Assembly (NCBI GenBank): GCA_014879675.1
Contig: JACSRQ010000055.1
Span: 1 to 58,699, forward strand
DNA from: Ignavibacteria bacterium
Lineage (GTDB): Bacteria; Bacteroidota; Ignavibacteria; Tepidaquicellales; OLB5
DNA: 58,699 bases
Direction: 5' to 3'
Below are positions 9,487 to 54,714 of this stretch, piece by piece. The translations under genes and the position numbers were made by a program. Below the pieces are notes generated by a model. It saw only the letters and a program-made list of their open reading frames with translations, was not told the DNA's origin and did not search any database. Within the stretch, counting starts at the first letter, position 1. Every line of letters starts with the position of its first letter.

Positions 9487-10962
9487 TTATTCACATTTCG
9501 CAAGAAGCTGGTCGGCTTTATTCAGCAGCCAGCCTTTATGATTAACCATTGGGTACGATAGAAGCTTTTCTTTTGTCTTGAGGAGTATCTCACTTCCTTT
9601 ATTGCCGCTTGTGATTGCGCGGATGTATGATGTAACTGTGTTAATGAAGCGGATATTAACTTCCCTGAAGATCGCCGAAAATTCCTCACGGCTTGTTAAC
9701 ATGTGGCGGAATGAATCGAGTACACTGGCGCATGGATCATAATGCCCCTGCTCGAAATACATTATGGCAAGGTGAGTTTTGACATCCGAGGCGTAAAAAG
9801 GATTTTCGAGATCCACATTGCTAAGCAGCTTTATCGCTGTATCATAATCTTTTTTTACATATGCAATAATTCCCCGTGCGTGGTTGTAAATACTTTCCTT
9901 TGATTCTTTATTAACGAGGTCAATATATTTTTCTATAAATTCCTCAACCCAGTCCAACTGTTTCAGCCTAACGGTCGTGAATATTACATTCCGGAAGTTA
10001 AGCAGGCTGATCACTCCCCCGGTTCTTAATGTTATTGTACCATACTCGAGTTTCATTTTCACTACTTCAAACTCATCCCATATCGCATTTTCGACGCCAT
10101 CGTTGACACGCTGAATTGCTATGTTGTGAAGCGATTCTATTAGTGACGCAAGCTCATAAATGCTGAATCTACCTGCATTATCAATGATGCTCTGCCGGTA
10201 CCGGTGATAGTTCTCTCCGCTGCCAACAAGCATAGCATTGAGCCTGTGGTAATATACTTCTATCATTTCACTGTAAGGATAATTGTTCATCTTCAGGTAT
10301 TCCAGCAGGTGAGCGAAGTCGAGCTTGTCAAGGACTTCCTGAACAAGGTCTGTTTTATGCTGAATGTTGAATGAAGTCATGTTCGCGTTCAGGTCAATCG
10401 CTATCCGGGTAAGCTCGGTTATAAAGAAGTAAATGAGGTAATCGCCGGCTTTCATCACGTTATCAGCGGCATATTTCTGTTTATCGCGCGAAAGCAGGTA
10501 TTGGGTTTTTATGGTTTCCAGCTTGTGCAGGTGGAAAAAAAGCGGGTGTATCATATGGGTTGTATCAAGCAGATCTTTCTCAAGCTTCTTCAGCCTGCTT
10601 TGAAATATGTTATCCAGTCTTTTAGTATTTAGTTCACTCAGTATATCAAGCTCTTTATCGTTGGCGTTCCTGCTGCGGTATTTGTTTATAGCAAGGAACT
10701 CAAGCAATAACTGCAGCAGCTCTGATGAGAGGTTTTTCATTATCTGCTCATTGTAGGGCTTCAACGGAAACAGCTTGTTAAAGAGCAGTTCCTTCTCAAT
10801 TTTTGCCCCATCGAACCCGGGGTATTGTTTCTTCAGCAGCCCAAACAGCCTGATAATATTGCTGTTGGAGTTGAAATATGGCGAGTTAATGAAATTATCC
10901 AGCTCCTTCAATTCACATTCGCTAAGCACACTGATAATTTGAACGGCCTTCGAAGTTTTCAT
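9487..10962 (-). CDS. Helical-repeat hypothetical protein, paralogue A (subfamily I)
   Basis: 491 aa; SPYFN near the N-terminus, 'LDSFRHML' TPR-like region, C-terminal 'WLLNKADQLL'; no signal peptide. Confidence 0.8.
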   Translation of the reverse strand: MKTSKAVQIISVLSECELKELDNFINSPYFNSNSNIIRLFGLLKKQYPGFDGAKIEKELLFNKLFPLKPYNEQIMKNLSSELLQLLLEFLAINKYRSRNANDKELDILSELNTKRLDNIFQSRLKKLEKDLLDTTHMIHPLFFHLHKLETIKTQYLLSRDKQKYAADNVMKAGDYLIYFFITELTRIAIDLNANMTSFNIQHKTDLVQEVLDKLDFAHLLEYLKMNNYPYSEMIEVYYHRLNAMLVGSGENYHRYRQSIIDNAGRFSIYELASLIESLHNIAIQRVNDGVENAIWDEFEVVKMKLEYGTITLRTGGVISLLNFRNVIFTTVRLKQLDWVEEFIEKYIDLVNKESKESIYNHARGIIAYVKKDYDTAIKLLSNVDLENPFYASDVKTHLAIMYFEQGHYDPCASVLDSFRHMLTSREEFSAIFREVNIRFINTVTSYIRAITSGNKGSEILLKTKEKLLSYPMVNHKGWLLNKADQLLAKCE

Positions 10963-11178: not shown

Positions 11179-11210
11179 TTTGAAATCCCAGCGAGACGCT
11201 TATATCTTTG
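11179..11210 (+). promoter_or_regulatory. Bacteroidota-type promoter
   Basis: TTTG(11179-11182)-N20-TATCTTTG(11203-11210). Confidence 0.65.
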
Positions 11211-11217
11211 TAGCAGA

Positions 11218-11448
11218 ATGAAAGATGGCAAGAGGGAAATGAAAAGGGGAAAAAAAGCAGAGGGTGAGATCGAAGTGAACAGTTTTTATAACTTTGAACT
11301 TGAATTCAAAATGATGGAAAATCAAATGTACAGCTGGCTTATCAGCAGTGCATATCCGCAAATAAACACAAAACCAGAAAGATCTAAAAATAAAAAAAAT
11401 AAAACAATATCAAATAATAATAAATCAAAAGGAGACCAAAAAAAATGA
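11218..11448 (+). CDS. Candidate 76-codon Lys/Asn-rich leader ORF
   Basis: internal ATG of the 11155-11448 ORF, 7 nt after the -7 box; stop overlaps the downstream ATG at 11445. Confidence 0.4.
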   Translation: MKDGKREMKRGKKAEGEIEVNSFYNFELEFKMMENQMYSWLISSAYPQINTKPERSKNKKNKTISNNNKSKGDQKK

Positions 11449-12671
11449 AATCACTTAAATTACTTCTGCTGTGCCTCGCCTTCACCACTTCGGTTTTTTC
11501 GCAGTGGCAGCAGCAAAACACACCGGATAATACAAGTTCGTATTACGATCTTGAAGCAATTAGTCAGCAGACCGTTTATTGCGCCGGCCAGATAGTATTA
11601 AAAACAGTAAACGGCGGTACAACATGGACGCCGCTGACTATTGCGGGCTATTTTCAAATCGTCTTCGGAATTTCATTCTACAGCGCCACTACAGGATGGG
11701 GATGCGGATACGACGGCAAGATATTTAAAACGACAAACGGCGGAACGGCGTGGACAACACAAACTGCAGGTACCGAATCTTTCTGGGATATTCTGTTTGT
11801 AAACGCATCTACCGGGCTTGTATGCGGAGGTTCTGGCAAACTTTATAAATCAACGAACGCAGGCGCAAACTGGATAGCCAAAAACCCGGGAACTTCTCTG
11901 GAATTGAGAAGTATTGCGAATTACAATGCGAGTATTATATGGATAGGCGGAGGTGAATCACAAGATGGAATTATTCTAAAGTCAACCAACAGCGGCGATA
12001 GCTGGCAGACAATGCAAACCTTTGACAGGCCAATTCAAAAAATTCAATTCCTTAATGCCTCGACGGGATTTGCTTCAAGTGACAGCAGGGTATTCAAATC
12101 AACCAACGGCGGCGCTAACTGGGTTGATGTAAACCTTCCTACCTCGGGATATTTTCTGACCTTTTATATGGCGAATGAAAATGTTGGTTACGCCTCCAAT
12201 TGGGATAATACTTACAAAACCCTCGATGGCGGCATGACATGGGGTGAACAAAACACCATTTTGCCGAATGTTTCTATGAAGGATATAGAATTCGCGCCGG
12301 GCAGCACCTCAATTGGATGGATGTGCGGATCAAACGGGGCGATAGTTAGTACAACCAACAGTGGCGGCGGATTCATAGGTATCGAGCCTATCTCCGGAAA
12401 CGTGCCGGAAAAATATTCGCTCAGCCAAAACTATCCGAATCCGTTTAACCCCACAACTAACATTAAGCTTCAAATTCCTGAATCAGGTTTGGTAAAGCTG
12501 GTTGTGTTTGATGTAACAGGCAGGGAAGTTGCTGAGCTTGTGAATGAAACATTAACGGCAGGTGAATACAAAGTTGATTTTAACGCATCGGGTCTTACAA
12601 GCGGTGTATATTTTTACAGACTGACTACAGAAGGTTTTAGTGAAGTTAAAAAAATGATATTAGTTAAATAA
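11445..12671 (+). CDS. YCF48/BNR-like propeller protein with T9SS sorting domain
   Basis: signal peptide; 'FKTTNGGTAW' blades; NYPNPFNPTTNIKLQIPESGLVKLVVFDVTGREVAEL...KKMILVK. Confidence 0.9.
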   Translation: MKSLKLLLLCLAFTTSVFSQWQQQNTPDNTSSYYDLEAISQQTVYCAGQIVLKTVNGGTTWTPLTIAGYFQIVFGISFYSATTGWGCGYDGKIFKTTNGGTAWTTQTAGTESFWDILFVNASTGLVCGGSGKLYKSTNAGANWIAKNPGTSLELRSIANYNASIIWIGGGESQDGIILKSTNSGDSWQTMQTFDRPIQKIQFLNASTGFASSDSRVFKSTNGGANWVDVNLPTSGYFLTFYMANENVGYASNWDNTYKTLDGGMTWGEQNTILPNVSMKDIEFAPGSTSIGWMCGSNGAIVSTTNSGGGFIGIEPISGNVPEKYSLSQNYPNPFNPTTNIKLQIPESGLVKLVVFDVTGREVAELVNETLTAGEYKVDFNASGLTSGVYFYRLTTEGFSEVKKMILVK

Positions 12672-15736: not shown

Positions 15737-17191
15737 TTAAAGATTCTCGATCATTTCCAGCAGCCACTGCCTGCTGTGCAGATTGGGAGATACGGCATCA
15801 ATTTTATTTTTCACCTCATTCGGGTCTGCCTTCTTTTCACCTGATTTCATCTTCAGCAGCTCGTAATATATTGCCGTAAAGTTCAGGTATAAATTTCTGT
15901 AAGTGTCGTTCATGTTTTTATTTTTATACAGGAATTGTTTATATGAATCAAGCGCAAACCCGGCAGACTGGAAATCGCCTTTTTCATAGTATATCCTTAA
16001 ATAGAATGATTTCATTGAAAGCTTGAACAGGAACTGGCTAAGCTTGGTTTTATTCAGCATCTCAAGCGCCTTATCATATTCTTTCCGTTTATAAAGAATA
16101 ATTGCCCGCGCGAAATTTATGGCTCCTTCCCTGATCTCAGGCTCAAGATCAGCATGGTGCTTTTCTGCAAACTCCTCAGCCCAATTTACCTGGTTAATTT
16201 CAACCGAGTTTATAAAGATGTTCCAAAACTTCAGAAGATGCAGAGTTCCTTCTTCGTAAAGCTTCAGCAGGTTCAGCTCAATTGACTTTCTGTGAATTGT
16301 GTTCAGCTCTGCCCTGAATTTTGCAGAATCTATCTTTATGTTATCGATACAAAAGGTCTCAAGGGTGGTGATGAAGTTATAGTTGGTTGACCTGTTGAAC
16401 AGCGAAATATTATCGAGCAGTAATTTTTTGAACTTCACGTAATCTTCTTCTTTTCCGTTGAGCGAGAGCATTGCCCTGTAATAAAAGATAAGCAGCACGG
16501 AATGCTCTTTTTCCGAGGAAACCTTAAGCTTGTTAAGTATCGAATCCATATCAAGCCCTTCAAAAAGCTTCAGGGTGAATGAATTACTATCCTTCATGCT
16601 ATAGTATCTTTCGTTCACCTTCATATCGATTATGTGGTTAATCAGCTTCGAGATATAATCGTAAGTAAGCAGCTCACCCTGCCTTACAACAACGGGGTAA
16701 ACGCCTTCCTGCCGGTTGTGCGTTATCTCGTTGAGAAAAACCTCGCCTTCAAGCTTGTAAAGATTTTCGAAATATAAAAAATCGAAGGAGTGATCCTTTT
16801 GCACCGCCGCGTATGCAGCCTTAAGATTCTTATCATACTGTGCGTCAAGGTTTCTCGTCCTCAACGCATGCAGGATAGATCTCATTTTCAAATTTTGATC
16901 TTTGAGCAGGCTTTCGGATACGAGAAAATCATAGCAAAGCTGTAAAGCATCGCTCATTAGATTCCTCATTACCTGGTCATTATACACTTCAGAGGAAAAT
17001 ACCTTTGCATAGATCTTTTCTTTTGTGAAATTCCTGTTCTCAAAATCAGGGTGATATTTCTTCACAAGCTCTACCAGCTTCTTCACAGACTTTGATGAAT
17101 TATGATAAGGGGAATTGGCAAAATCAGAGAACTTTTTCATTTCCTCCTTTGATAGAGTTTTGATCACATCTATGAAGTTGGTTTTGAGCAT
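15737..17191 (-). CDS. Helical-repeat hypothetical protein, paralogue B (subfamily I)
   Basis: 484 aa; 'FIDVIKTLSKEEMKKFSDFANSPYHN', 'LDSYKQFL', 'QWLLEMIENL'. Confidence 0.85.
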   Translation of the reverse strand: MLKTNFIDVIKTLSKEEMKKFSDFANSPYHNSSKSVKKLVELVKKYHPDFENRNFTKEKIYAKVFSSEVYNDQVMRNLMSDALQLCYDFLVSESLLKDQNLKMRSILHALRTRNLDAQYDKNLKAAYAAVQKDHSFDFLYFENLYKLEGEVFLNEITHNRQEGVYPVVVRQGELLTYDYISKLINHIIDMKVNERYYSMKDSNSFTLKLFEGLDMDSILNKLKVSSEKEHSVLLIFYYRAMLSLNGKEEDYVKFKKLLLDNISLFNRSTNYNFITTLETFCIDNIKIDSAKFRAELNTIHRKSIELNLLKLYEEGTLHLLKFWNIFINSVEINQVNWAEEFAEKHHADLEPEIREGAINFARAIILYKRKEYDKALEMLNKTKLSQFLFKLSMKSFYLRIYYEKGDFQSAGFALDSYKQFLYKNKNMNDTYRNLYLNFTAIYYELLKMKSGEKKADPNEVKNKIDAVSPNLHSRQWLLEMIENL

Positions 17192-17465
17192 ATCTAGATT
17201 ACAAAAGTAGTTACTTCTTAGTGAATAATATATTGAAAACTATGAGTTTATTGCCTGCTAAGACATTTTACTGTAATAGGCAGCAGGTTACAAGTTAATA
17301 AAACTTTTAATCTAAAAAAAAGTTATTACAAATCAGTTTTTTTTACTCCGGATAATTGCCTAAAGGATGCCGGAATCGAGATAAAAGTGATCTACTGACC
17401 GGTTAATAAGCGGTTATAGTGCAAAATATTGCGCTGATTCAGGTTACACCGGCAAATAGTTCTAA

Positions 17466-17497
17466 TTGAAGAGCATACCGGGCAGATGCTATTTTTG
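17466..17497 (+). promoter_or_regulatory. Bacteroidota-type promoter
   Basis: TTG(17466-17468)-N21-TATTTTTG(17490-17497). Confidence 0.6.
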
Positions 17498-17504
17498 AAG
17501 AGTA

Positions 17505-17735
17505 ATGAAAATCAAAAAAAAGGTTGAGGGCGATGGTAAGAAGCAAAGAGATACAGACCGTGTAAGCACAGAGACCATGATGGATAAACTCTATTATTCA
17601 CATCTTTCAGAGCTGCTGTTTGAGTGCGGAACGAACGGCAAGGACGGAAAAACCAACAGCATGAGCACCAAAAATGATTCAGAAAAAAAGAAGAACAATA
17701 ACAAAACATACATCAATAAATTAAACAAAAAATAA
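17505..17735 (+). CDS. Candidate 76-codon Lys/Asn-rich leader ORF
   Basis: ATG 7 nt after the -7 box; stop 1 nt before the ATG of 17737; same length and position as 11218-11448. Confidence 0.45.
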   Translation: MKIKKKVEGDGKKQRDTDRVSTETMMDKLYYSHLSELLFECGTNGKDGKTNSMSTKNDSEKKKNNNKTYINKLNKK

Positions 17736-17736
17736 T

Positions 17737-19437
17737 ATGAAAGACAAACACTACACAACTTCCTCAGCAGGATCGGGAATTTCATTCACGGCAAAGCTAA
17801 TTTTTATGTTTGCCATTTTCTTCGTTTTCGCGGGTACATTTGTTTATGCCCAGCCATCAGAAATATGGTCCAGAACCTATAACAATCCAAACGGAACAGG
17901 AGATGACTATGGCGACAAATCAATAGTTGATGCCGATGGCAACACCTACATTTCAGCCAGCACCAGAACGGCAAGTACAAGCGATGACATCATGCTGGTT
18001 AAATATAATTCTTCCGGCGCACGTTTATGGACCAAAATCTACAACTACAGCTACAACGGCATAGAGCAGCCCAACGATATTTGTTTTGACGGCAGTGGGA
18101 ATATTTACGTTACGGGGACAAGCACAAGGGGCCCCGGAGGTGTGCATGACGCGATACTTTTAAAATATGATACGAACGGGAATATTCTCTGGGTGAAAAG
18201 AATAAACAGGACGAATTTTGCTGACCGTGAAGCCGAAGGTGTTTCGCTGGTTGCAAGAGACGGAATTTATGTAGGCATGACATTGCAATATAACGGGTAT
18301 ACGGAATGCGGCATAGCAAAGTATGCTTTTACCGGCGACTCACTTTCGTATATATCACTGGGTGTTGCAAACAATTTCTCGTACCGGATGATAAAAATGG
18401 TAAAAGATAATTCGCTCAATATTTATGCGGTTTGCGCAGGTGATCTGATTGCGAATGAAGAGCAGGATTTTATAGTAAGAAAGATAAATACAAACGGCAG
18501 CTTTACGATAGAATGGAGCAAAACATATACCGGCGCTTCGCATATGGATGACAATCCCCGTGATATTGCAGTTGGCCCCGATGGCAACATATTTATCGCA
18601 GGAAGTACAACGGTTTCCAACCAGGGAACCAACTCGCTGCTTCTGAAGTATGGCAGGGATGACGGCTCATTGATATTTCAGAAAACATACAACGACCCTG
18701 TTTCGAACCAGAGTGACTATGCGAGTCATATTTCTTTTGATTTGAGTGCAAATATCATTCTAGGCGGAGCTACAACACCATTGAACACATCTTCAAATCT
18801 GCTGTTAATTAAATACTCTCCGGCCGGTTCACAGTTGTGGGTAAAAACGTATGAACATCCCGGAAACAGGCCCGAGGGAATCCGCGATATGAAATTAGAC
18901 GGTTCTGATAATATATATGTTATCGCCGATATGTTTGACCCGATTGCTCAAACCGTAAGTCTTTTGACAGCTAAGTTCAGCTCAGCGGGTGATTTAGACT
19001 GGAACATAGAAAGACCCGGCCTGAACAGTTCACAGGGATTCAAATCACTCCATATTTTACAGGATGGAAGCCTTATTGTTTCAGGAAACACAGACTCTGC
19101 GGGTATCAGAAAAACATTGCTGATAAAATATGGATCTACCATAGGAATAGAGCCGATCTCCGGCAATCTGCCTGAGAAATATTCCCTTGGTCAAAACTAC
19201 CCGAATCCGTTCAACCCGACAACCAATATTAAGCTGCAAATTCCTGAATCGGGTTTGGTAAAGCTGGTAGTGTTTGATGTAACAGGCAGGCAAGTTGCAG
19301 AGCTTGTGAATGAGACATTGATGGCAGGTGAATACAAGGTCGATTTCAACGCATCGGGTCTTACAAGCGGTGTTTATTTCTACAAGCTAACTTCAGCAGG
19401 ATTCACGGAAACTAAACGTATGGTACTGGTTAAATAA
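17737..19437 (+). CDS. SBBP-like beta-propeller protein with T9SS sorting domain
   Basis: 'LLKYDTNGNILWVKRI' repeats; NYPNPFNPTTNIKLQIPESGLVKLVVFDVTGRQVAEL...KRMVLVK. Confidence 0.88.
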   Translation: MKDKHYTTSSAGSGISFTAKLIFMFAIFFVFAGTFVYAQPSEIWSRTYNNPNGTGDDYGDKSIVDADGNTYISASTRTASTSDDIMLVKYNSSGARLWTKIYNYSYNGIEQPNDICFDGSGNIYVTGTSTRGPGGVHDAILLKYDTNGNILWVKRINRTNFADREAEGVSLVARDGIYVGMTLQYNGYTECGIAKYAFTGDSLSYISLGVANNFSYRMIKMVKDNSLNIYAVCAGDLIANEEQDFIVRKINTNGSFTIEWSKTYTGASHMDDNPRDIAVGPDGNIFIAGSTTVSNQGTNSLLLKYGRDDGSLIFQKTYNDPVSNQSDYASHISFDLSANIILGGATTPLNTSSNLLLIKYSPAGSQLWVKTYEHPGNRPEGIRDMKLDGSDNIYVIADMFDPIAQTVSLLTAKFSSAGDLDWNIERPGLNSSQGFKSLHILQDGSLIVSGNTDSAGIRKTLLIKYGSTIGIEPISGNLPEKYSLGQNYPNPFNPTTNIKLQIPESGLVKLVVFDVTGRQVAELVNETLMAGEYKVDFNASGLTSGVYFYKLTSAGFTETKRMVLVK

Positions 19438-19557: not shown

Positions 19558-20805
19558 TTGAAAACAAAAGTACTTATATCTTTATTTACACTTGTATTAC
19601 TAACAACTGCTGCGAATTCACAGTGGACTGAATATGATCTGCCCGGAACATATGGCAACTCTAACGATATTGTTTCGGTTACGAACCAGATTATCTTTTC
19701 CGCCGGCCACGATATTCATAAATCAACCAATGGCGGCATTAACTGGGTCAAACAAACAAATCTTGCGTATGAGAACCAGCGCACTGAAATACAGTTTTAT
19801 AATTCATCTACAGGATGGTCTTGCGGAGCCGATGGCAGCTTCATGAAGACCACCAATGGAGGGACAAACTGGGTGGAAACATTTGCGGGATTTGAAACTT
19901 TAACCGGATTGGACTTTATCAACTCCAACACAGGGTACCTTTCAACCGAAACCGGGAAAGTTTTAAAAACAACCAACGGAGGAAGTAACTGGACATCTTA
20001 CTCGCCTTCACAGATATCATATCTTACTTCAGTATTCTTTCTAAATGATCAAACAGGATGGGCAAGCGGAAGCCAGGGAACTACCGGAAAAGTCATCAGA
20101 ACAACCAATGGCGGCTTGAACTGGGTTATACAGCTTAATAATGTTTTTAATGCGGTTGATCATGTATATTTCAGGAATGCCGAAACCGGATTTGCAGGAT
20201 GTTATAAAAAAATGTACAGAACCACCAATGGCGGAAACTCATGGGATACCGTAAATATCCATTCTGATGTGAACGATATTAAGTGCGTTCTAATGGTGAG
20301 TGTTACAACGGGCTACGCAACTGGAAGTTTTTTCGGCAACTCGGGCGGAGTGATAAAAACTTTTGATGGCGGTTTAAACTGGTATCTTCAGTGGGCCGGA
20401 TCTCCCAACAGCGCCAATTCAATTTCATTTGCCCCGGGAAGCACAGCTAACGGCTGGGTTTCAACTAATTCAGGGGTTTTACGGACAACAAACAGCGGAG
20501 GTGAGTTAATTGGGATCCAGCCGGTTTCAAATATCATACTTGAGAAGTATGAGTTAAGCCAGAATTATCCGAACCCGTTCAACCCTACAACCAATATCAA
20601 GCTGCAAATCCCTGAATCAGGTTTGGTGAAGCTGGTTGTGTTTGATGTAACAGGCAGGCAAGTTGCTGAGCTTGTGAATGAAACATTAATGGCAGGTGAA
20701 TACAAGGTTGATTTCAACGCATCGGGGCTCACAAGCGGTGTGTATTTTTACAGGATCACAACTGCGGGTTTCAGTGATGCTAAGAAAATGATATTGGTTA
20801 AATGA
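19558..20805 (+). CDS. YCF48/BNR-like propeller protein with T9SS sorting domain (TTG start)
   Basis: 'MKTTNGGTNW' blades; CTD nearly identical to the three preceding CTDs. Confidence 0.88.
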   Translation: MKTKVLISLFTLVLLTTAANSQWTEYDLPGTYGNSNDIVSVTNQIIFSAGHDIHKSTNGGINWVKQTNLAYENQRTEIQFYNSSTGWSCGADGSFMKTTNGGTNWVETFAGFETLTGLDFINSNTGYLSTETGKVLKTTNGGSNWTSYSPSQISYLTSVFFLNDQTGWASGSQGTTGKVIRTTNGGLNWVIQLNNVFNAVDHVYFRNAETGFAGCYKKMYRTTNGGNSWDTVNIHSDVNDIKCVLMVSVTTGYATGSFFGNSGGVIKTFDGGLNWYLQWAGSPNSANSISFAPGSTANGWVSTNSGVLRTTNSGGELIGIQPVSNIILEKYELSQNYPNPFNPTTNIKLQIPESGLVKLVVFDVTGRQVAELVNETLMAGEYKVDFNASGLTSGVYFYRITTAGFSDAKKMILVK

Positions 20806-23218: not shown

Positions 23219-25327
23219 CTATTTGATTAGTACCATTTTTCTTGTGGACACGAAATTTCCGCTGCTGAGCCGGTAAAAATACACTCCCGAAGGCAAACCT
23301 GAGGCATCGAATTCTACTTTATGAGTACCTGCGTTTAGTTCTCCATTAACAAGAACCTCCACTTCTTTGCCGGTTACATCATATACAGCAAGCTTTACAA
23401 ATCCGCCGGTTGGTATATGTATCTTCAGGCTTGTCACCGGATTGAACGGATTGGGATAGTTCTGTTCCAGCCTGTAATTATCGGGAGTTGTGTTTTCATT
23501 CTGCCCGAAACCTGTTATTGAGCCGTTGGTGCTTTTCAATATCATTCCTCCGGCCCCGAGCAGGTAAGTAGTCCCTGTATTATTGTTGTGATACATTGTT
23601 CTTATTGCGTAATCAACGGGGGTAGTTAGCTGCACCCAGTTTGTTCCGCTGTTTGTGGTGCGGTAAAAATTTCCAAACAGGCTTACTGTATATCCAATGT
23701 TTTCATTCACAAAATACATGTCATTTATATACGGTGTTACCGGTGTACCCGCAATCCAGTTAACCCCGCCATTTGTAGTTCTGTAGAAATTCTGCCCGCT
23801 GGAGTTTGAGCCGGCAAATCCTGTATTGCTGTTCACGAACCAAAGGGTTGTCATGGCAAGTGGTGAGCTGAGTGTTTGTTCTGTCCAGTTTAATCCTGCA
23901 TTGGTTGTTTTTTTGATGAGTGCACCGGCAGGCGAGTTTTTGTAACCGGATAGATACCCTGTTTGCGGATCTGTAAAAGTCATATCGGCATAATAGGCAT
24001 TATCAGTTGAATCTATTTGCTGCCAGTTTGCGCCCGCGTTCGTTGTTTTGAGAGTTTTCGCATTTGAAGTAACCAAGTAACCGGTGTTATCATCTGTGAA
24101 ATTGATACTGCGGAAAGGTGACGGATAACCGGTTATCAGCGGGGTGAAGTTTGCTCCGCCATTCGTTGTTTTGTAAAGTAAGCCCGAGTTCATAGCTGCG
24201 TGGTAACCTGTGCTTGGATTCCTATAGTAAACGGGTCCGCCAAATGCTATCGAACTCAGCTTTATCCAGTTAACCCCGCCGTTTGTAGTCTTAATAACAC
24301 TGTTGAAAGAAGAGGCATAGCCGTTGTTATCATCAGTGAAGTGCGAGTAGTACAGTTCATTGTTTACGCTGCCGAAAAGCTGGAGCCAGTTAGTGCCGCC
24401 GTTCGAGGATCTTGTTATGGTGCCAAATGCGCCTGACATAAAAATATCATTGGCATTTAATGGCTGAATGCATTGCAGTGTATTGAAGTAGGTTTCGCCG
24501 GGGTAGGTAACTATCCAGTTCAGCCCGCCATTAGTGCTTTTACCAACTGCGCCGCCCTGGCCGCATGCAAACACGGTTGAGGCATTCTGGTATCTCAGCA
24601 TATAGATGTCATACATTCCGCTTACAGTGATCGTATTCCAGTTCGATCCGCCGTTGGATGTTCGCAGCATTAATCCGTTCCTTCCGGCTGCCAATCCGTT
24701 ATCGGTATCGGTGAAACAGATAGAAAGAATATCGCCTGAGTTGGTTGTTTGCGTGATCCAGTTACCGCCGCCATCTGTTGATTTAGAAATACTTGTTGAG
24801 CCTGCCGAGTATATTACGGAAGGAGAGCATTGCCAAACGCCGGCATTGTAACTTATGCTTGTATTTACAGATATCCAGTTCACCCCGCTGTTCGTGGTTT
24901 TGAGAATATCACCTTGCTGGTGAGCGGCAACACCAGTGGCGGCATTAATGAAGTTTATAGACCGCGGCCCGTATTGCAATCCCAGGTTTTGTTCCGTCCA
25001 GTTCAATCCGCCATTCGTAGTCTTAAACATAAGGCACTGGAACCTGCCGGCTCCCATATATCCTGTGTTGGCATCTGTAAAACAGATGGATTGAATGGTT
25101 TCGGTTGTCGCCAGCGTGATCCTGTTCCAATCAGCGCCCGAGTTGGTAGTTCTGTAAAGCTCGCCGTTAGCTCCGCCCAGAAATCCGGTGCTGCTGTTGA
25201 TGAAGCAAACAGCATTCATATCATACCCGCTTGGTTTGGGGTTCTGCCATACCCATGCCGGCTGTGAATACAGAGTATTTACAACGAGAATAAATAAAAC
25301 TGCGGTCAAAAATTTAATTGTTTTCAT
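23219..25327 (-). CDS. YCF48/BNR-like propeller protein with T9SS sorting domain
   Basis: 'TTNGGVNW' repeats; NYPNPFNPVTSLKIHI...KKMVLIK-type tail (TRKMVLIK). Confidence 0.9.
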   Translation of the reverse strand: MKTIKFLTAVLFILVVNTLYSQPAWVWQNPKPSGYDMNAVCFINSSTGFLGGANGELYRTTNSGADWNRITLATTETIQSICFTDANTGYMGAGRFQCLMFKTTNGGLNWTEQNLGLQYGPRSINFINAATGVAAHQQGDILKTTNSGVNWISVNTSISYNAGVWQCSPSVIYSAGSTSISKSTDGGGNWITQTTNSGDILSICFTDTDNGLAAGRNGLMLRTSNGGSNWNTITVSGMYDIYMLRYQNASTVFACGQGGAVGKSTNGGLNWIVTYPGETYFNTLQCIQPLNANDIFMSGAFGTITRSSNGGTNWLQLFGSVNNELYYSHFTDDNNGYASSFNSVIKTTNGGVNWIKLSSIAFGGPVYYRNPSTGYHAAMNSGLLYKTTNGGANFTPLITGYPSPFRSINFTDDNTGYLVTSNAKTLKTTNAGANWQQIDSTDNAYYADMTFTDPQTGYLSGYKNSPAGALIKKTTNAGLNWTEQTLSSPLAMTTLWFVNSNTGFAGSNSSGQNFYRTTNGGVNWIAGTPVTPYINDMYFVNENIGYTVSLFGNFYRTTNSGTNWVQLTTPVDYAIRTMYHNNNTGTTYLLGAGGMILKSTNGSITGFGQNENTTPDNYRLEQNYPNPFNPVTSLKIHIPTGGFVKLAVYDVTGKEVEVLVNGELNAGTHKVEFDASGLPSGVYFYRLSSGNFVSTRKMVLIK

Positions 25328-25505
25328 GTTTTGGAATAGTAATATTTGATCTTTGATTTATTTGCAGGCTGTAATGTTTTAGTGCTTCTGATATTACCTC
25401 TTCCTGGCTTCCCTTAAGCTGTTTCTGTATCTTTTTTATAAGCTTATGTGTTTGAGGTTTAAGGCGGTAACCTTTTGCTACAGTAGTATTCTTTCTGATG
25501 TTCAT
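25314..25505 (-). CDS. Small ribbon-helix-helix-like protein
   Basis: 63 aa 'TTVAKGYRLKPQTHKLIKKIQKQLKGSQEEVISEALKHYS'; overlaps the start of 23219-25327; paralogue at 31386-31550. Confidence 0.6.
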   Translation of the reverse strand: MNIRKNTTVAKGYRLKPQTHKLIKKIQKQLKGSQEEVISEALKHYSLQINQRSNITIPKHENN

Positions 25506-25692: not shown

Positions 25693-27228
25693 ATGAAAAC
25701 TCCAAGTAATGATCTGTTTGACCTGATAAAGACTCTTGCCAAATCAGAAAAAACATATTTCAAACGTTCTGCTTATGATACCGGTGAGGGCAAAATATAT
25801 ATCAAGCTTTTTGATGAAATTGATAAACAAAGTGTATACGATGAAAAAAAGCTGAAACAGAAATTCAGCCATATAAAACAATTTTCAGTACTGAAAAACC
25901 AGCTATATGATGCAGTACTGGATGCATTAGGAAGACTTGCAAACAGGCTCAATTATACTTACAAAGTATCTGTAATGGTAAAAAAATCAGACCAGTTATA
26001 CAACAGGGGACTCTACGGTCAATCTGAAAAACTGCTTCTAAAAGCAAAAAAAGCAGCATACCAATCAGAGGATTTTACAGCGCTGCTTCAGATTGTTGCC
26101 GTCGAAAAAAAACTGATCTTAAAACAATTAAAACGCGACGAGAAGAAGATCAGGGAACTGCACAAAGAAGAAAGCAATATTATGTTACTGCTGAAAAATC
26201 TATCAGAGTATAATGAGATATTCACAAAAACTTACCTGTATTTTTTAATGTATGGATATATCAGGAATAAAGATGAAGATAAGAGGTTCATAAAAAACAC
26301 TTTTGTGCTAAGCTATGAGAAATTGTTCAAAAACACAAAGTCTAAAAGGGCAGAGCAGTTTTTGATGGAAACTTTTCACCTGTATCATACATCAAAATTT
26401 AATACAGAGAACGCAATGAAGTTTAACAGGGCTTCGTTAAAGATCATGGAAGATAATTCAGCATTATTAAGATCGAACGTTGAAAGATATCTTGCTACAT
26501 TTCAGAACTATGTTTTGCAATATTTTTACAAAGGAGATATTGAAAACCTGGAAATATCAGCAGACAGGCTAAAAAACTTTTTGGAAACCACAAAAATACA
26601 CATCCCGCGGCTTGTCAGGGTGACAGCCCAGGGTAAAATTTACGATATTTTACTCTCAGCATATCACACCTCCTGTAAGTTTGATAAAGCAATTGATGTT
26701 CTTGTTAAAGCTGAAATGCTGGTAGAGGAGAATTTTTCTGTAATTGATAAGTCAGTAAAAAATGTAACTTATCAAATGGGTACATTTATTTATTTTACCA
26801 CAGAAGACTACGATAACGCTTTGAGGCTTTCAAACAAATTGTTAAACGACCCGGATTCGCTTAAATTCCTGGAAGTGTATTGTTTTATCTTATTGCTGCA
26901 GTTACTTATACATTATGAATTGGGGAATTATGACTTGATAGAATATATTACCAAATCAACAAAAAGATATCTTTCAAAATCAGAGAAGCTGTACAAAATA
27001 GAGAGAATAATGCTAACATTCTTCAATAAAGTGATCAGATCTGAAAAAGAGGATAAATCGGAATTATTTAAAACACTGGAAGGCAATCTGAATGAATTAA
27101 GAAACGACAAGGATGAAGGAGTTTTTGAATATTATGATTTTTCTTCATGGTGTGAAAGCAAGTTAAGAAAAATGAAAATTAAGGATGTACTTACAGAAAA
27201 ATATATTAAGAGCCTCAAACAGCAATAA
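25693..27228 (+). CDS. Helical-repeat hypothetical protein, paralogue C (subfamily II)
   Basis: 511 aa; 'NDLFDLIKTLAKSEKTYFKR...YIKLFDEIDKQSVYDEKKLKQKF'; C-terminal 'SSWCESKLRKM'. Confidence 0.8.
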   Translation: MKTPSNDLFDLIKTLAKSEKTYFKRSAYDTGEGKIYIKLFDEIDKQSVYDEKKLKQKFSHIKQFSVLKNQLYDAVLDALGRLANRLNYTYKVSVMVKKSDQLYNRGLYGQSEKLLLKAKKAAYQSEDFTALLQIVAVEKKLILKQLKRDEKKIRELHKEESNIMLLLKNLSEYNEIFTKTYLYFLMYGYIRNKDEDKRFIKNTFVLSYEKLFKNTKSKRAEQFLMETFHLYHTSKFNTENAMKFNRASLKIMEDNSALLRSNVERYLATFQNYVLQYFYKGDIENLEISADRLKNFLETTKIHIPRLVRVTAQGKIYDILLSAYHTSCKFDKAIDVLVKAEMLVEENFSVIDKSVKNVTYQMGTFIYFTTEDYDNALRLSNKLLNDPDSLKFLEVYCFILLLQLLIHYELGNYDLIEYITKSTKRYLSKSEKLYKIERIMLTFFNKVIRSEKEDKSELFKTLEGNLNELRNDKDEGVFEYYDFSSWCESKLRKMKIKDVLTEKYIKSLKQQ

Positions 27229-28584: not shown

Positions 28585-31356
28585 TTACTTAACGATCAGC
28601 ATTTTTTTAGTATTAATAAATTTCTGACCTTCTCCTTCGGCAGTGATGCGGTAAAAGTATACACCTGATGAAAGGTTTGAACCGTCAAATTCAATTGTAT
28701 AATAGTCAGCGGTTTTGATCTCGTTTACTATGGTTGCAACTTCCTTTCCCAGGACATCGTAAATCCTGACAGAGACTTTTCCTTCAAAAGGCATCTGGAA
28801 ATCTATTTTACTTATCGGATTGCCGGGGTTGGGGTAGTTCTGACTTACCTTAAATTCAAAAGGTCTTGCAATATCTACGGTATTATTCAGATCGTAGTAT
28901 TCAAACAAACCGTTATAATCGATCTGCTTCAGTCTGTATTTATACTTTCCGGTATTAAGTTTCTTATCTTCAAAAGAATAGGTTTGGGGTTCATTTGTTG
29001 TTCCGGATCCGCGAACGAAGCCAACCTTAGACCAAGGAGATAACTCTCCCCCGGAAATTACATTACATCTTTCCACATCATAACCTGAGTTGTTCAGTTC
29101 CCATGTTGATTCCCACCGCAGGATTACGCTGTTTATTGAAGATGTGGAGCTAAAGTAATTCAACTGAACCGGAAGGGCATCATCCTGGTAATGAGCAATA
29201 TAATCAGAAGCATTACCGCCGGCTAAAGTAAAATCTCCGCCCGCATATAAATTGGAACCGTTAACAGCAACAGCCGAGACAGTACCAAGAGCAAGACCAC
29301 TTCCCATGGTACTCCATGATGTACCATCCCATTTGGCAATTCTGTTTACGGGTAAGCCGTTTACCTTTGTAAAGTTACCCCCAATAATCAGATTACCATC
29401 AGTGTTTGTTAATGAATAAACTGATGAATTTGGTCCCGTTCCGGAACCAAGCGCTGACCATGTTGTACCATTCCATTTGGCGACCTTGTTAGCGGTTACG
29501 CCGCCGGCAATTGAAAAAAATCCACCGGCAAAAACATCATTTCCAATCGAAGTAAGAGCAAAGACGAAGCCGTTTGTACCTGAATCTAAGGCTGTCCATA
29601 CAGCACCATCCCATTTTGCAACATGGTTTACCGTTATATCGCCCGCTGTTGTAAATGTGCCTCCGGCGTATAGATCCGTTCCTATAGCAGTAAGTGTATA
29701 AATTACATTATTTGTACCTGTACCCAGTGCTGACCATGTTGTACCATTCCATTTGGCGATCTTGTTAACGGTTACACCGCCTGCTGTTGCAAATGAGCCT
29801 GCGGCATATAAGTCTGTTCCGATGGCAATTAATGATTGTACCTGACCGTCCGTTCCGGAACCAAGCGCTGACCATGTTGTACCGTTCCATTTAGCAATAT
29901 TGTTTACCGTTACACCGCCTGCCGTGTTAAAATCGCCCCCTGCATAAACATCATTTCCAATAACAACAATTGCACGTACAGAACCATTTGTTCCTGTACC
30001 AAGAGTGCTGTATGTTGAACCGCTAAGTTTTGCAATACTGCGGGCATATTTATCACCGGCTGTTCCGAAGTTACCTCCCAGGTACAGGTCGTTGCCCGAA
30101 ACTGCAAAACAACGGACGATACCGTTTACTCCCAGGCCGGTTGGGTTTGAAAACGGAGTAAAAGCAGAGCCATCCCATTTAACGATCCCTTTATAATAAA
30201 ACTGCAAGTATCCATAACTTCCGCCAATGATAAGATTTGAACCCATTGCTGCCAGCGAATAGATATATGAACCCAGTCCTGTATTGAGCGTGCTCCAAGA
30301 AGTTCCATTCCATTTAGCAATAGCATTCACTGTTATTCCGCCCATTTTGATGAAATCACCGGCAGCATAAATATCTGTACCAATGTTTGTAATAGCATAA
30401 ACAGTGCCGGTTACTGTTCCCGTACCCAAAGCGCTCCACGAAGCACCATTCCATTTTGCAATCCTGTTAACCGTTACGCCGCCCGCTGTTGAGAAAAATC
30501 CTCCCGCAAACAGGTCGGAACCCGAAACAGCAAGTGAATATACAACTGCATTAGTACCTGTACCCAATGCACCCCAGGAAGCCCCATCCCACTTCGAAAT
30601 GTTGCTGCACGCCAAACCACCGGCAGTAGTGAACTGGCCTCCTGCGTAAAGATCGTTGCCCATAGCAACAAGCGCATAAACAGAATTATTTATGCCTGCA
30701 CCTAGCGCGGACCAGTTTGCCCCGTCCCATTTGGCAATGCGGTTTGCAGTTATTCCGCCCGCAGTTGTAAAATTCCCGCCAAAATACACATCGGTTCCAA
30801 TTACTGCGATGGAGTTAACGTTATTGTTTAAACCTGTTCCCAATGCGCTCCATGTTGTTCCATTCCACTTAGCGGCAAAACGTAAATTAGTAGAACCAGA
30901 ACCGCTGAAATATCCTCCTGCATATATGTCAGTGCCAATTGAAACTATAGATTTAACGGCATCATTAAGTCCGGCACCCAGTGCGCTCCAGCTTGTCCCA
31001 TTCCATTTAGCAATACAAATTGCTCTGATACCGCCAATTCTTTGAAAAAATCCTCCTACATAAATTTCATTTCCAACAACGCAAACAGTTTGTATTCCGC
31101 CCTCGGAGCCTACTACTCCATTGGGATCAATATAATCAGTATCCCACCCGGCAGATGGCATATCACTTCTGATAAACTTCGGAGATCCTGAATTTGTGTA
31201 CCCCATTTGATATCCAAGGGTGCTGTAACTTCCGTTTATACCCTGCAGCAAAGAACCATCTTTTTGCAGTACCCCTGATATTGAAGGCTGACCGTTTTCA
31301 AATCCAAAGGTAATTACAGAATTGAACAGCAGTATAGCAAGTATTAAATTTTTCAT
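28585..31356 (-). CDS. Multi-repeat 'AKWNGTxWSALG' propeller protein with C-terminal sorting domain
   Basis: about 13 repeats of ~45 aa; NYPNPGNPISKIDFQMP...SGVYFYRITAEGEGQKFINTKKMLIVK. Confidence 0.9.
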   Translation of the reverse strand: MKNLILAILLFNSVITFGFENGQPSISGVLQKDGSLLQGINGSYSTLGYQMGYTNSGSPKFIRSDMPSAGWDTDYIDPNGVVGSEGGIQTVCVVGNEIYVGGFFQRIGGIRAICIAKWNGTSWSALGAGLNDAVKSIVSIGTDIYAGGYFSGSGSTNLRFAAKWNGTTWSALGTGLNNNVNSIAVIGTDVYFGGNFTTAGGITANRIAKWDGANWSALGAGINNSVYALVAMGNDLYAGGQFTTAGGLACSNISKWDGASWGALGTGTNAVVYSLAVSGSDLFAGGFFSTAGGVTVNRIAKWNGASWSALGTGTVTGTVYAITNIGTDIYAAGDFIKMGGITVNAIAKWNGTSWSTLNTGLGSYIYSLAAMGSNLIIGGSYGYLQFYYKGIVKWDGSAFTPFSNPTGLGVNGIVRCFAVSGNDLYLGGNFGTAGDKYARSIAKLSGSTYSTLGTGTNGSVRAIVVIGNDVYAGGDFNTAGGVTVNNIAKWNGTTWSALGSGTDGQVQSLIAIGTDLYAAGSFATAGGVTVNKIAKWNGTTWSALGTGTNNVIYTLTAIGTDLYAGGTFTTAGDITVNHVAKWDGAVWTALDSGTNGFVFALTSIGNDVFAGGFFSIAGGVTANKVAKWNGTTWSALGSGTGPNSSVYSLTNTDGNLIIGGNFTKVNGLPVNRIAKWDGTSWSTMGSGLALGTVSAVAVNGSNLYAGGDFTLAGGNASDYIAHYQDDALPVQLNYFSSTSSINSVILRWESTWELNNSGYDVERCNVISGGELSPWSKVGFVRGSGTTNEPQTYSFEDKKLNTGKYKYRLKQIDYNGLFEYYDLNNTVDIARPFEFKVSQNYPNPGNPISKIDFQMPFEGKVSVRIYDVLGKEVATIVNEIKTADYYTIEFDGSNLSSGVYFYRITAEGEGQKFINTKKMLIVK

Positions 31357-31385: not shown

Positions 31386-31550
31386 CTATTTTGCGGTTTG
31401 CATCTTTTTACTGAAATCTTTGCATGCCAGCCAAAGAACATTATCTATGTTGCTCTTTGTCCGCTTCGATAGTACGCTTATCAGTTTGTGTGTTTTTGGC
31501 TGCAGCCGGTACCCCTTTGCGATTGAGTTTTCTCTTGTGAGTGTTTTCAT
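31386..31550 (-). CDS. Small ribbon-helix-helix-like protein
   Basis: 54 aa from the internal Met of ORF 31386-31784: 'NSIAKGYRLQPKTHKLISVLSKRTKSNIDNVLWLACKDFS', aligns with 25314-25505. Confidence 0.6.
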   Translation of the reverse strand: MKTLTRENSIAKGYRLQPKTHKLISVLSKRTKSNIDNVLWLACKDFSKKMQTAK

Positions 31551-31747: not shown

Positions 31748-33199
31748 ATGCTAAGTACTTCGTTGACTGACATTTTGAGTTCATTTTCTAAAAAGGAAAT
31801 TAAAGAGTTCGGTTTGTTTGTTGAATCACCTTACTATAATACAAGCGAAGCAACAACGAAACTTTACTATGAGATAATCAAGTTTTATCCCGGTTTCAGC
31901 AGCAGAAATTTTGAGAAAGAGTATTTATTCAACAGGGTTTACCCGGGCGCAATACTGAAAGAGGATCTGCTGAGAAAATTGCTCTCGAATCTGATAAAGC
32001 TGACAAATGAATTTATGAAACAGGAATCTGTTAAGAAAATGAATGATCAGGAATTGTTGGTATTGAAAGAATATTCAAAACGCGGATTAGCCGGTATGTT
32101 CGAAAAAAAGGCCGATGAGATATTAAAGATGGCAAATCTGAGAACGGGCATATCCGCGCAGAAGTTTGATCTGATATCTAAGACAGAACTTGTGAGATCC
32201 GAATTTTACGCCGGTATTAATCAAACGGAAAAGTATTTGTCATCGTATCAAAATCATACAGAAAACTTACTTGTTTTTTATATGACCGATCTTTTGTATG
32301 CAGCCATGCAGATAAAAATAAACTCAGGTTATCATAAAAAAACTGAACCTTCGTCACTATTGGGTTTTATTCAATCACTTAACCTGAGCTTGGTGCCGGA
32401 CCAATTTCAAAATGAACATCAGCGTCAGCTGGTAGATGTATATATAAGGATATATAAGTTGTATTTTGATCAGGTTAACGATGATAATTTCTTTTATTTA
32501 TTTAGTCGTCTTCAAATTTTCAAGAAAAAGTTTGATAAACCGCTGGTGAAAGTTGTTTTAACGGGCCTGGAGTATTATTGCATTTCAAAATATGAAAGAA
32601 TTAAAGACCGGGTTGTATTAGGCTCTCTTGCCGATGTTTACAGATTTGAATTAAGCGAAGATCTGTTTGAAAGGTCCCATGACGATTATATGTTTGTAAC
32701 AAATTTCAGAAATTACCTGATAGTTTTTTTGGCCGTCAATATTGAATATGCCGAGGAATTGCTGGAAAAGCATATTTGCCAAATTAACCCTGATATTAGA
32801 GAAGCTCTGGTGCATTTTGCGAAGATGATGATTTATTTTAAGAAAAAGGAATTTAAGCAATCACTGTTTCATATTAACAAAATAGATTTGATCTATTTTG
32901 CATTCAAATATGACGTGAAAGCGTTCCAGGTTAAGCTTCATTTTGAGCTTGGCAATTATGAACAGGTACTATCGCAGATAGATACGTTTAAACACTATAT
33001 CAGGGATGAAGATAAATTAGAACGTTATACTTTAGAGATCAAAGAGTTTCTTGATTGTTCACTCAGGCTAACCAAAGCAGTTTCCGGGGGTAACATTGAA
33101 GAGCTGGAATTGCTCAGAAATTATGTAACAAAAGGAAGCTTTGTATATGAAAGCAACTGGCTTCTGGAAAAATTGAATGACTTCTTAAAACCACATTAA
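31748..33199 (+). CDS. Helical-repeat hypothetical protein, paralogue D (subfamily I)
   Basis: 483 aa; 'LTDILSSFSKKEIKEFGLFVESPYYN', 'IDTFKHYI', 'NWLLEKLNDFL'. Confidence 0.85.
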   Translation: MLSTSLTDILSSFSKKEIKEFGLFVESPYYNTSEATTKLYYEIIKFYPGFSSRNFEKEYLFNRVYPGAILKEDLLRKLLSNLIKLTNEFMKQESVKKMNDQELLVLKEYSKRGLAGMFEKKADEILKMANLRTGISAQKFDLISKTELVRSEFYAGINQTEKYLSSYQNHTENLLVFYMTDLLYAAMQIKINSGYHKKTEPSSLLGFIQSLNLSLVPDQFQNEHQRQLVDVYIRIYKLYFDQVNDDNFFYLFSRLQIFKKKFDKPLVKVVLTGLEYYCISKYERIKDRVVLGSLADVYRFELSEDLFERSHDDYMFVTNFRNYLIVFLAVNIEYAEELLEKHICQINPDIREALVHFAKMMIYFKKKEFKQSLFHINKIDLIYFAFKYDVKAFQVKLHFELGNYEQVLSQIDTFKHYIRDEDKLERYTLEIKEFLDCSLRLTKAVSGGNIEELELLRNYVTKGSFVYESNWLLEKLNDFLKPH

Positions 33200-41254: not shown

Positions 41255-42718
41255 TCAATTCAGAGTACTGCCCTGTAAATCTGAGATCTTTTCAAGCAGC
41301 CATACTTTAGAAGATGTCGGTTGTGATGCCATCACTTCTTCTTTAACTTTTTCCGCCAGCTCCGGATCCGGATCTGCTTTGAGCATTAAAATGTTTTTAA
41401 CAAAAGTGAGAAAGAGCCTCAAACCTGTTTTATTTTTGTCGTTGATATCAGACGCGTTATCAAGAAAGCGTTTGAAAGAATCAATCGCGCTGATCGTTGT
41501 TTCCATATGGCTCAGCTCGTAATATGATTTTAACTGGAGCAATTTTACATCACATTTAAAGAAAAAATTAACATTGTTCTGTTCCCAAAAATCCTTGAAG
41601 TTGATCCGGGAGCAGAGCGATAAACACTCTTCAAACTTTTTTTCGGCAAAACTCAAAGTTGCATCAGAGTACATCACGACTATTTCCGGGTTTTCACAAA
41701 TAACCTTGTGCTTGTTCGCATTTATGAAATCTTTCATTATCAGGTATTCATTTGTATTGGCTGCAAGTTTAACAATGTTCCGGTATGCTTCAAGCTCTAT
41801 AGAGCCGTCTTTTCGGTGTGAAAATATTCTCCTGTTAAGTACTTCTATGTTAAGCTCAAGCTGAATCCGCCTGTATTCATCCTTGCCTTCGTGTTTTTTG
41901 AAAAGGCACAAAAGGATAAGTATGTTATAAATGTTCTTTGATTCATTTACCGGAAGTATATCTATTATGGAATAGAAGAGCTTTCTTGCCCGGTCAAAAT
42001 AGTCGTCTTCCATGATCTCAAAGAATGAGAGCATGAGGTAATATAAAATTCTCAGTAAAGGTGAGCCGCTAAATGCTTCTTCATCTTCCCTAAAATAATT
42101 AAGCAGGTATTCCAGGAACCTGAGATCATGCTTGTTCGTGGTCTTCTGCATTTCAACCGCCAGGTGAAAATTATTGAGAAGGTAGTGCAGCATGAACGAC
42201 TCGAGTATAAGTTCGTTAGTCTTTGTCCTTGCTTCATCTGACATTTTGCGGTTCATGTAATATTCGTCAATAAGAGTCTGCACGGTGAATTTTTCAGTGT
42301 AATAAAACTGGTCTTTTACTTTGGTGTTTTCAATCTTGTTGTTGAAAGCATTAGCCTTCTTTAAGAAAATGTCAAATGCTTTTCTATCCCAGAGCTCATT
42401 TATTAATGATCTATCGTAAGTTGTAGTTCTTTTCCAATTGGAATAACTTAAGTAGTCTTCGGCTAATTTTTTAAGCTCGAAAATCAGGTTTTTCATTATT
42501 CCGTAATTGTATTTCTTGCCCTTGTAGATCTGTTCCCATAAAGATTCCTTCTCAAGCCCTTTATCATCAAAATCCGGCGCGTATTTTTTAATTGCCCTGT
42601 AAAGAGTTACCACAATTGTATTTTTGTTATGATACCCGGAAGAAATAAAGCGATCAAAATCAGAAAACTCTTCTTTTGTGAACGTTTTTAGAACTTCGAT
42701 GAGTGAAGATTTTAACAT
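41255..42718 (-). CDS. Helical-repeat hypothetical protein, paralogue E (subfamily I)
   Basis: 'LIEVLKTFTKEEFSDFDRFISSGYHN', 'IDSFKRFL', 'VWLLEKISDL'; start placed at the internal Met aligning with paralogue B. Confidence 0.83.
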   Translation of the reverse strand: MLKSSLIEVLKTFTKEEFSDFDRFISSGYHNKNTIVVTLYRAIKKYAPDFDDKGLEKESLWEQIYKGKKYNYGIMKNLIFELKKLAEDYLSYSNWKRTTTYDRSLINELWDRKAFDIFLKKANAFNNKIENTKVKDQFYYTEKFTVQTLIDEYYMNRKMSDEARTKTNELILESFMLHYLLNNFHLAVEMQKTTNKHDLRFLEYLLNYFREDEEAFSGSPLLRILYYLMLSFFEIMEDDYFDRARKLFYSIIDILPVNESKNIYNILILLCLFKKHEGKDEYRRIQLELNIEVLNRRIFSHRKDGSIELEAYRNIVKLAANTNEYLIMKDFINANKHKVICENPEIVVMYSDATLSFAEKKFEECLSLCSRINFKDFWEQNNVNFFFKCDVKLLQLKSYYELSHMETTISAIDSFKRFLDNASDINDKNKTGLRLFLTFVKNILMLKADPDPELAEKVKEEVMASQPTSSKVWLLEKISDLQGSTLN

Positions 42719-42761
42719 TATGGTGTATGAATGATTAAGTGGCGCTAGCAATAAAAGTGAA

Positions 42762-54242: not shown

Positions 54243-54620
54243 GATGTGAAATAGCGAAATGTAAAACGTGAAACGTCAAATGTCAAACGTCAAACGAAAG
54301 GCGTGAAAATTTCCCAAAAAAGCGGAAGTCAGGCATGCAATGTGAAACGTCAGACGTAAAACGAGAGGCGTGAAATTATTCACAACGTCGTTTGAGAAGG
54401 CAGAGTGAAAATCGAGAATAGCTAAATTGAGACGAAAAGTTATCGGAATATTGAAACATAGACTGTAACATTAAATTACAAATTAATTCGGGGTTTAATT
54501 CTCATTTTCGGGAACTTTAGGTGCTGTAAGTGAAGTTAAACTCTGAAATAGCCGATACAATTACCTCCGTAAACGCTATGAATTACGTCCTTCAAATCAG
54601 ATTGGAACGTAGAATACAGA

Positions 54621-54648
54621 AAAAAAGGGCTATTTCCAGCCCTTTTTT
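54621..54648. terminator. Bidirectional terminator
   Basis: aaaaaagggct...agcccttttttat. Confidence 0.65.
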
Positions 54649-54714
54649 ATTTATACACATAAGTCATTGCAAATTAACAGTAGTTAGGAGTTTTAACACT
54701 ACTGAAAATTAGCT

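Follow-up and report, generated by a model that had tools for sequence, protein, structure and literature searches.

A conserved small basic leader gene between a divergent solenoid gene and type IX-secreted cargo genes in Ignavibacteria

Layout of the leader modules

The window analyzed here is the whole 58,699-nt stretch of contig JACSRQ010000055.1 (assembly GCA_014879675.1, Ignavibacteria bacterium), in which a small open reading frame, leader B, separates a divergent helical gene from a propeller gene (Table 1). Module B reads TTG (17466-17468), 21 nt, the box TATTTTTG (17490-17497), 7 nt and ATG 17505; after 76 codons the leader ends with a TAA (17733-17735), and a single base (17736) separates it from the cargo ATG at 17737. 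These letters and coordinates had been given correctly in the initial annotation. Module A reads TTG (11180-11182), 20 nt, the box TATCTTTG (11203-11210), 7 nt, ATG 11218 and 76 codons, and its stop TGA (11446-11448) overlaps the cargo ATG at 11445 as ATGA. The same geometry had been claimed for module A: the 7-nt distance from box to ATG and the 76 codons are indeed present in the letters, but the TTG spacer is 20 nt and not 21, and the first ATG is probably unused.

Table 1. Positions of the features of modules A and B and of two further small first cistrons, numbered along the window
Feature	Position	Strand	Basis and context
Helical gene A, 491 aa, divergent partner in module A	9487..10962	-	26% identical to helical B; orthologues in G012, G003
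-7 box TATCTTTG, module A	11203..11210	+	Sequence
Leader gene A (KN family), read from the second ATG as the probable 69-aa frame; frame of the initial annotation starts at 11218	11239..11448	+	Orthologue starts; 3/3 orthologous loci intact
First secreted cargo of module A, YCF48-like with Por_Secre_tail, overlaps leader stop	11445..12671	+	Sequence; Pfam
Helical gene B, divergent partner in module B; TPR-like solenoid of 484 aa, all helices	15737..17191	-	AlphaFold2; weak PDB fold matches; sub-cut-off TPR Pfam; >50 genome matches
Near-invariant non-coding block (TTACAAGTTAATAAAACTTTTAATCTAAAAAAAAGTTATTACAAATC), putative operator or helical-gene promoter region	17285..17336	.	Column invariance; TTAC at fixed positions
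GGTTACA...GTTCTAATTGAA element, takes in the -33 TTG (17466-17468)	17441..17472	.	66% invariant columns across B orthologues
-7 box TATTTTTG (TAnnTTTG class)	17490..17497	+	Identical in 5/5 B orthologues, always 7 nt 5′ of ATG
Leader gene B of the KN family; small basic protein of 76 aa with Lys/Asn-rich tails and a helix predicted at residues 22-40	17505..17735	+	Intact in 5/5 orthologous loci; codon-position pattern; model
First secreted cargo of module B, SBBP/DUF5122 propeller with Por_Secre_tail	17737..19437	+	Pfam
Second secreted cargo of module B, YCF48-like with Por_Secre_tail	19558..20805	+	Pfam
GYRLKP-type first cistron of a further pair	25314..25505	-	Distant helical gene 25693-27228 (+); cargo 23219-25327 (-); PHROG 2e-4, CopG-like 0.009
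GYRLKP-type first cistron of another pair	31389..31550	-	Helical gene 31748-33199 (+); cargo 28585-31356 (-)

Leaders A and B are 28% identical in a gapped pairwise alignment and belong to what we call the KN family, characterized by alignment, model and charge as a short conserved helical core between Lys/Asn-rich basic tails. The core of about 20 residues is conserved at the protein level and the tails diverge fast; the full-length members counted all fall between +8 and +12 in net charge. Leader B is modelled with one helix that coincides with the core, no other structure and no beta strand (pLDDT 61, low confidence overall), and inspection of the leader translations revealed Lys/Asn-rich sequences without a hydrophobic signal sequence. 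The product is presumably a basic cytosolic protein with one short helix between disordered tails.

Helical B was modelled by AlphaFold2 as an all-helical solenoid (pLDDT 84); its PDB fold matches are weak, the best being mostly TPR-like repeat proteins, and its TPR Pfam matches are weak and under the cut-off. Neither the KN nor the helical proteins gave a family match above the cut-off in Pfam, NCBIfam or PDB sequences. More than 50 matches to the helical family were obtained in this 3.8-Mb genome. Within the class, two families of the order carry it in many copies and it is almost absent elsewhere; the contigs carrying close relatives of helical B are, where named, Ignavibacteria MAGs. Solenoids of about 485 aa are found in the window at 9487-10962, 15737-17191, 31748-33199 and 41255-42751 and at over 40 loci elsewhere in the genome, mostly divergent from genes for type IX-secreted proteins, and have no family name in the libraries searched.

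In group B the box, the 7-nt spacing and the ATG are invariant in 5/5 genomes. A TAnnTTTG box is located at -12 to -5 in Flavobacterium (PMC9723704), and the two together predict a near-leaderless leader B mRNA, with the ATG about 3 nt from the 5′ end. Leaderless mRNAs make up 5.5% in that Flavobacterium species (PMC9723704), and about 3.7% of 5′ UTRs in Bacteroides thetaiotaomicron are shorter than 10 nt (PMC7366714).

The divergent spacer carries further conserved elements. Over four species, 87% of the columns of the B block at 17285-17336 are invariant, compared to 16-18% in the flanking spacer. The 260 nt adjoining each complete B helical gene contain 5-8 copies of TTAC, against 1.3-3.0 expected, with five at fixed positions; the excess is similar in A and is mixed and variable in C. 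One operator motif common to all pairs was rejected, the TTAC excess being confined to A, B and part of C, and the box common to most spacers is the promoter-like TTCTTTG. TCTTTG/TTCTTTG is strongly enriched in the spacers of 22 of 47 helical genes in this genome, and in some cases it precedes a TAnnTTTG-like box by about 20 nt; this enrichment and distance suggest a candidate extended -33 element in this lineage.

Conservation and coding capacity of the leader

The leader ORF is kept at every orthologous locus recovered within the same Ignavibacteria genus, in each case between the divergent helical gene and the operon and behind a TAnnTTTG box: at 5/5 B loci (this genome and G002, G005, on a neighbouring contig, G008 and G010), 3/3 A loci (this genome, G003 and G012) and 9/9 loci of a third group, C (nine genomes, this one included). 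The helical B orthologues are 71-80% identical in four same-genus genomes and those of helical A 61-72% in two. Sixteen of the 17 orthologous loci have an intact separate leader ORF, the 17th (G011) is joined in frame to the cargo, and no in-frame stop was found at any of them. The C group includes a GTG start in G005 (G005_C308) and a TTG start in G007; these two leaders had seemed truncated in an ATG-only search, but the reading of them as broken was discarded, both being intact with their GTG and TTG starts.

In the core blocks of A and B, changes by codon position were 35/16/46, with a position-3 excess of p = 0.003 when columns are treated as independent, which is the pattern of purifying selection on a protein. 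Pairwise dN/dS, calculated on protein-guided codon alignments with unsaturated dS and taken as supporting only, was 0.16-0.43 in A and B and 0.22-0.73 in C. In dinucleotide shuffles, an ORF of such length arose with a frequency of 0.025% (B) and 0.2% (A), and in dinucleotide-preserving shuffles the frame was open in 0.05-2% of trials per locus (P 0.0005-0.02). It could be argued that the leader is a chance ORF in an A-rich leader sequence, or a structured RNA element, as such a composition favours Lys/Asn codons and removes stops and the tails are of low complexity. The shuffle probabilities, the open frame at 17/17 loci, the position-3 bias and the lack of any Rfam match at the family gathering score all speak against this alternative, which we consider extremely improbable; a chance origin is excluded in practice by the comparative data. 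Leader B is almost certainly a genuine small-protein gene, as had been proposed in the initial annotation, which placed a real leader gene, exceeding chance expectation and related in A and B, between divergent helical and propeller genes. Small genes can hide in AT-rich leaders, as leader B shows.

The initial annotation had also held that the matching length and placement of A and B were hard to explain as chance, and this did not survive comparison with the orthologues. Their lengths range from 62 to 80 aa, varying by whole codons, and the A orthologues have their start codons 28 and 31 nt after the box. Since the in-frame second ATG of A, at 11239, is located at 28 nt, the first ATG of leader A is probably not its start and the product would be about 69 aa. 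In group C the start typically follows the box by 21 nt. The equal length of 76 codons was therefore rejected as a signal, and, given the orthologue lengths and the probable start of A at 11239, the matches 76 = 76 and 7 = 7 between A and B are coincidence.

The third KN paralogue of this genome lies on contig C45, and profile searches of the genome gave just these three (A, B and C); the upstream region of each helical paralogue was taken where the contig allowed, and the genome was read in the stretches around helical genes. KN leaders thus stand beside 3 of about 50 helical paralogues. A universal leader in all pairs was rejected on this count, and with it the view of the leader as a general feature of helical/propeller pairs. 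In a profile search of 99 related genomes, the KN family was found only in this genus and only at A, B and C loci, bar one weak match (E 0.005) in another family; an early three-row profile search had been too weak and missed true orthologues.

Linkage of the leader and other small first cistrons

In the tree of helical proteins A, B and C each form one clade at 100/100; A and C group together at 91/83, and the placement of B is weak. The first cargo behind the B leader is an SBBP propeller in G000 and G008 and a YCF48-like propeller in G002, G005 and G010, and the A loci likewise differ in cargo order. G002 has an intact C leader (L154, G002:C6) upstream of the helical gene 54469-55911, and lacks a cargo gene after it on that strand. 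The leader is linked to the helical gene and the spacer while the type IX-secreted cargo is exchanged. A and B are present side by side in this genome alone among the genus genomes searched, other species having one or the other, and the A and B neighbourhoods can have related downstream genes in common. Judging from few genomes, helical gene, spacer and leader may move together as one unit, with the cargo drawn from a common pool.

The exchange of cargo bears on the possibility that the leader acts in the cytosol as a small chaperone, or as a targeting factor, of the secreted protein encoded directly behind it, to which the first-cistron position, the tight cargo junction and the in-frame fusion in G011 would lend themselves. 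In this fusion (L155, G011:C25, ORF 285-2343 from the helical gene start), a C-type leader is joined to a secreted cargo, which puts the basic leader before a signal sequence; it is possibly a sequencing error or has an internal start. However, the chaperone reading is weakened because the cargo type (SBBP or YCF48-like) changes behind a conserved B leader; moreover, one C leader has no cargo and many Por_Secre_tail proteins of the genome have no leader. We regard it as very unlikely.

The junctions between leader and cargo are tight: stop and next start overlap as ATGA in 9 of the 14 leaders tabulated and are 1-2 nt apart in two more. Stop/start overlaps of the ATGA kind can couple translation (PMC6728339). 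The strongest rival to a regulatory role is that the leader matters only for translation, starting the operon and handing ribosomes to the cargo by termination-reinitiation, its sequence being irrelevant beyond an open frame. These junctions, the quickly diverging tails and the predicted near-leaderless B mRNA are in line with it. Nevertheless, the core of about 20 residues is conserved as protein, the charge is conserved too, and most pairs have cargo without a leader ORF. The conserved core and the C leader kept without cargo in G002 mean that translation is not a complete account, and we judge this explanation unlikely on the whole. In its narrower form, a leader serving merely as translation control of the propeller gene, it was rejected, the leader staying with the helical gene while the propeller gene changes.

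In most helical pairs of this genome a small first cistron is absent. Those found in other pairs belong to the GYRLKP family or encode fn3-like proteins or a coiled-coil-like protein; fn3-like small cistrons occupy the first position at C4 (L066), C207:26116 (L038) and C234 (L040) of this genome. The GYRLKP family is present in 20 of 43 related genomes; it occurs in all genomes of the genus and also in a second family of the order. Its cistrons (54-75 aa; loci L187-L216) have a divergent helical-family gene about 75-460 nt away in 27 of the 30 loci fetched. In the window, the copy at 25314-25505 is faced by a 511-aa protein without a Pfam match (25693-27228, +), probably a distant helical-family relative by a weak profile match. 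A PHROG transcriptional regulator is matched by 3 of 20 GYRLKP members, the best at 2e-4; the member with this best match also matches a CopG-like family at 0.009, and no Pfam ribbon-helix-helix match above the cut-off was found for the family. A DNA-binding role for the GYRLKP family is plausible from these sequence matches. That a weakly CopG-like family is divergent to the helical gene in 27/30 loci suggests that the first-cistron position is used for small regulators.

Proposed role and comparison with known systems

We tentatively propose, at slightly less than even confidence for the mechanism alone, that the leader is a small basic regulator paired with its cognate solenoid at the divergent promoter and translationally coupled to the cargo; confidence in the best explanation as a whole is evenly balanced. 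Leader and solenoid would be made from opposite sides of one promoter region with repeated TTAC elements, the solenoid would bind the conserved helix of the leader, and the basic leader protein, or its complex with the solenoid, would act on the promoter region or the mRNA. The operon would in this way be sensed and set by its own first product, the leader level tracking operon expression. Cargo translation is probably coupled to leader translation, because the leader stop and the cargo start touch or overlap. We infer solenoid binding, nucleic-acid binding, regulation and coupling alike.

Several observations stand against a regulator. Neither the KN nor the helical proteins match a known regulator family; the solenoid cannot need a small first cistron in every case, most pairs being without one; the small cistrons of some pairs are fn3-like and not obviously regulators; the link from GYRLKP to CopG is weak; and G011 carries its leader as a fusion with the cargo. 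Alternatively, the leader might control the activity of the solenoid, as an inhibitor or antitoxin-like ligand, and have no part in operon transcription. The strict pairing with cognate helical clades would agree with this, and one conserved helix with disordered tails is what a peptide binding in a TPR-like groove could look like, but the leader has the operon's own promoter and first-cistron position, a position occupied elsewhere by the weakly CopG-like family. This alternative seems to us quite unlikely.

Extending the proposed regulator to the order, one could envisage, with considerable doubt, an order-specific Ignavibacteria regulatory system of dozens of units per genome, in which a solenoid gene is divergent from a type IX-secreted surface-protein operon, many units have, as first cistron, a small protein of their own (KN, GYRLKP or another) that pairs with the cognate solenoid, and regulator and cargo halves recombine independently. 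If true, the result would be a repertoire of surface-protein programmes that can be exchanged. Through the small first cistrons, an unnamed solenoid family is linked to surface-protein operons, and the short helix, the cognate pairing and the defined elements of the spacer offer a first handle on solenoid function. The literature searched contained no description of this arrangement.

Among known arrangements, the termination-reinitiation of uORFs and leader peptides, as treated in PMC6728339, resembles the modules in the ATGA overlaps and the 1-2 nt stop/start junctions, and the stop and next start of the leaders do overlap or lie within a few nt. The KN leaders differ in having a conserved protein core and in going with the divergent gene instead of the coupled one.

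The CopG/Arc-type ribbon-helix-helix autoregulators are small first cistrons beside their own promoter. Like them, the first gene of the operon here encodes a small basic protein and lies close to the promoter that drives it, and this analogy fits best the GYRLKP cistrons, with their weak CopG-like and transcriptional-regulator matches. In contrast, the KN leaders are predicted to have a single helix and no beta strand, unlike a beta-alpha-alpha domain; they gave no ribbon-helix-helix match in Pfam or PHROG, and they have a divergent solenoid partner.

In the RRNPP systems (Rap/Phr, PlcR/PapR), a TPR-like solenoid protein is paired with a small adjacent gene. No sequence relation to these receptors and no recognized N-terminal HTH was found in the helical protein in Pfam, NCBIfam or PDB sequences. 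The leaders also differ from exported and processed signalling peptides: by inspection of their translations they have no export signal, they are 62-80 aa long and highly basic, and they are divergent from the solenoid gene instead of downstream. The likeness lies in the TPR-like solenoid, which the all-helical model supports with weak TPR-like fold matches, next to a small neighbouring gene whose short helix could sit in the solenoid groove.
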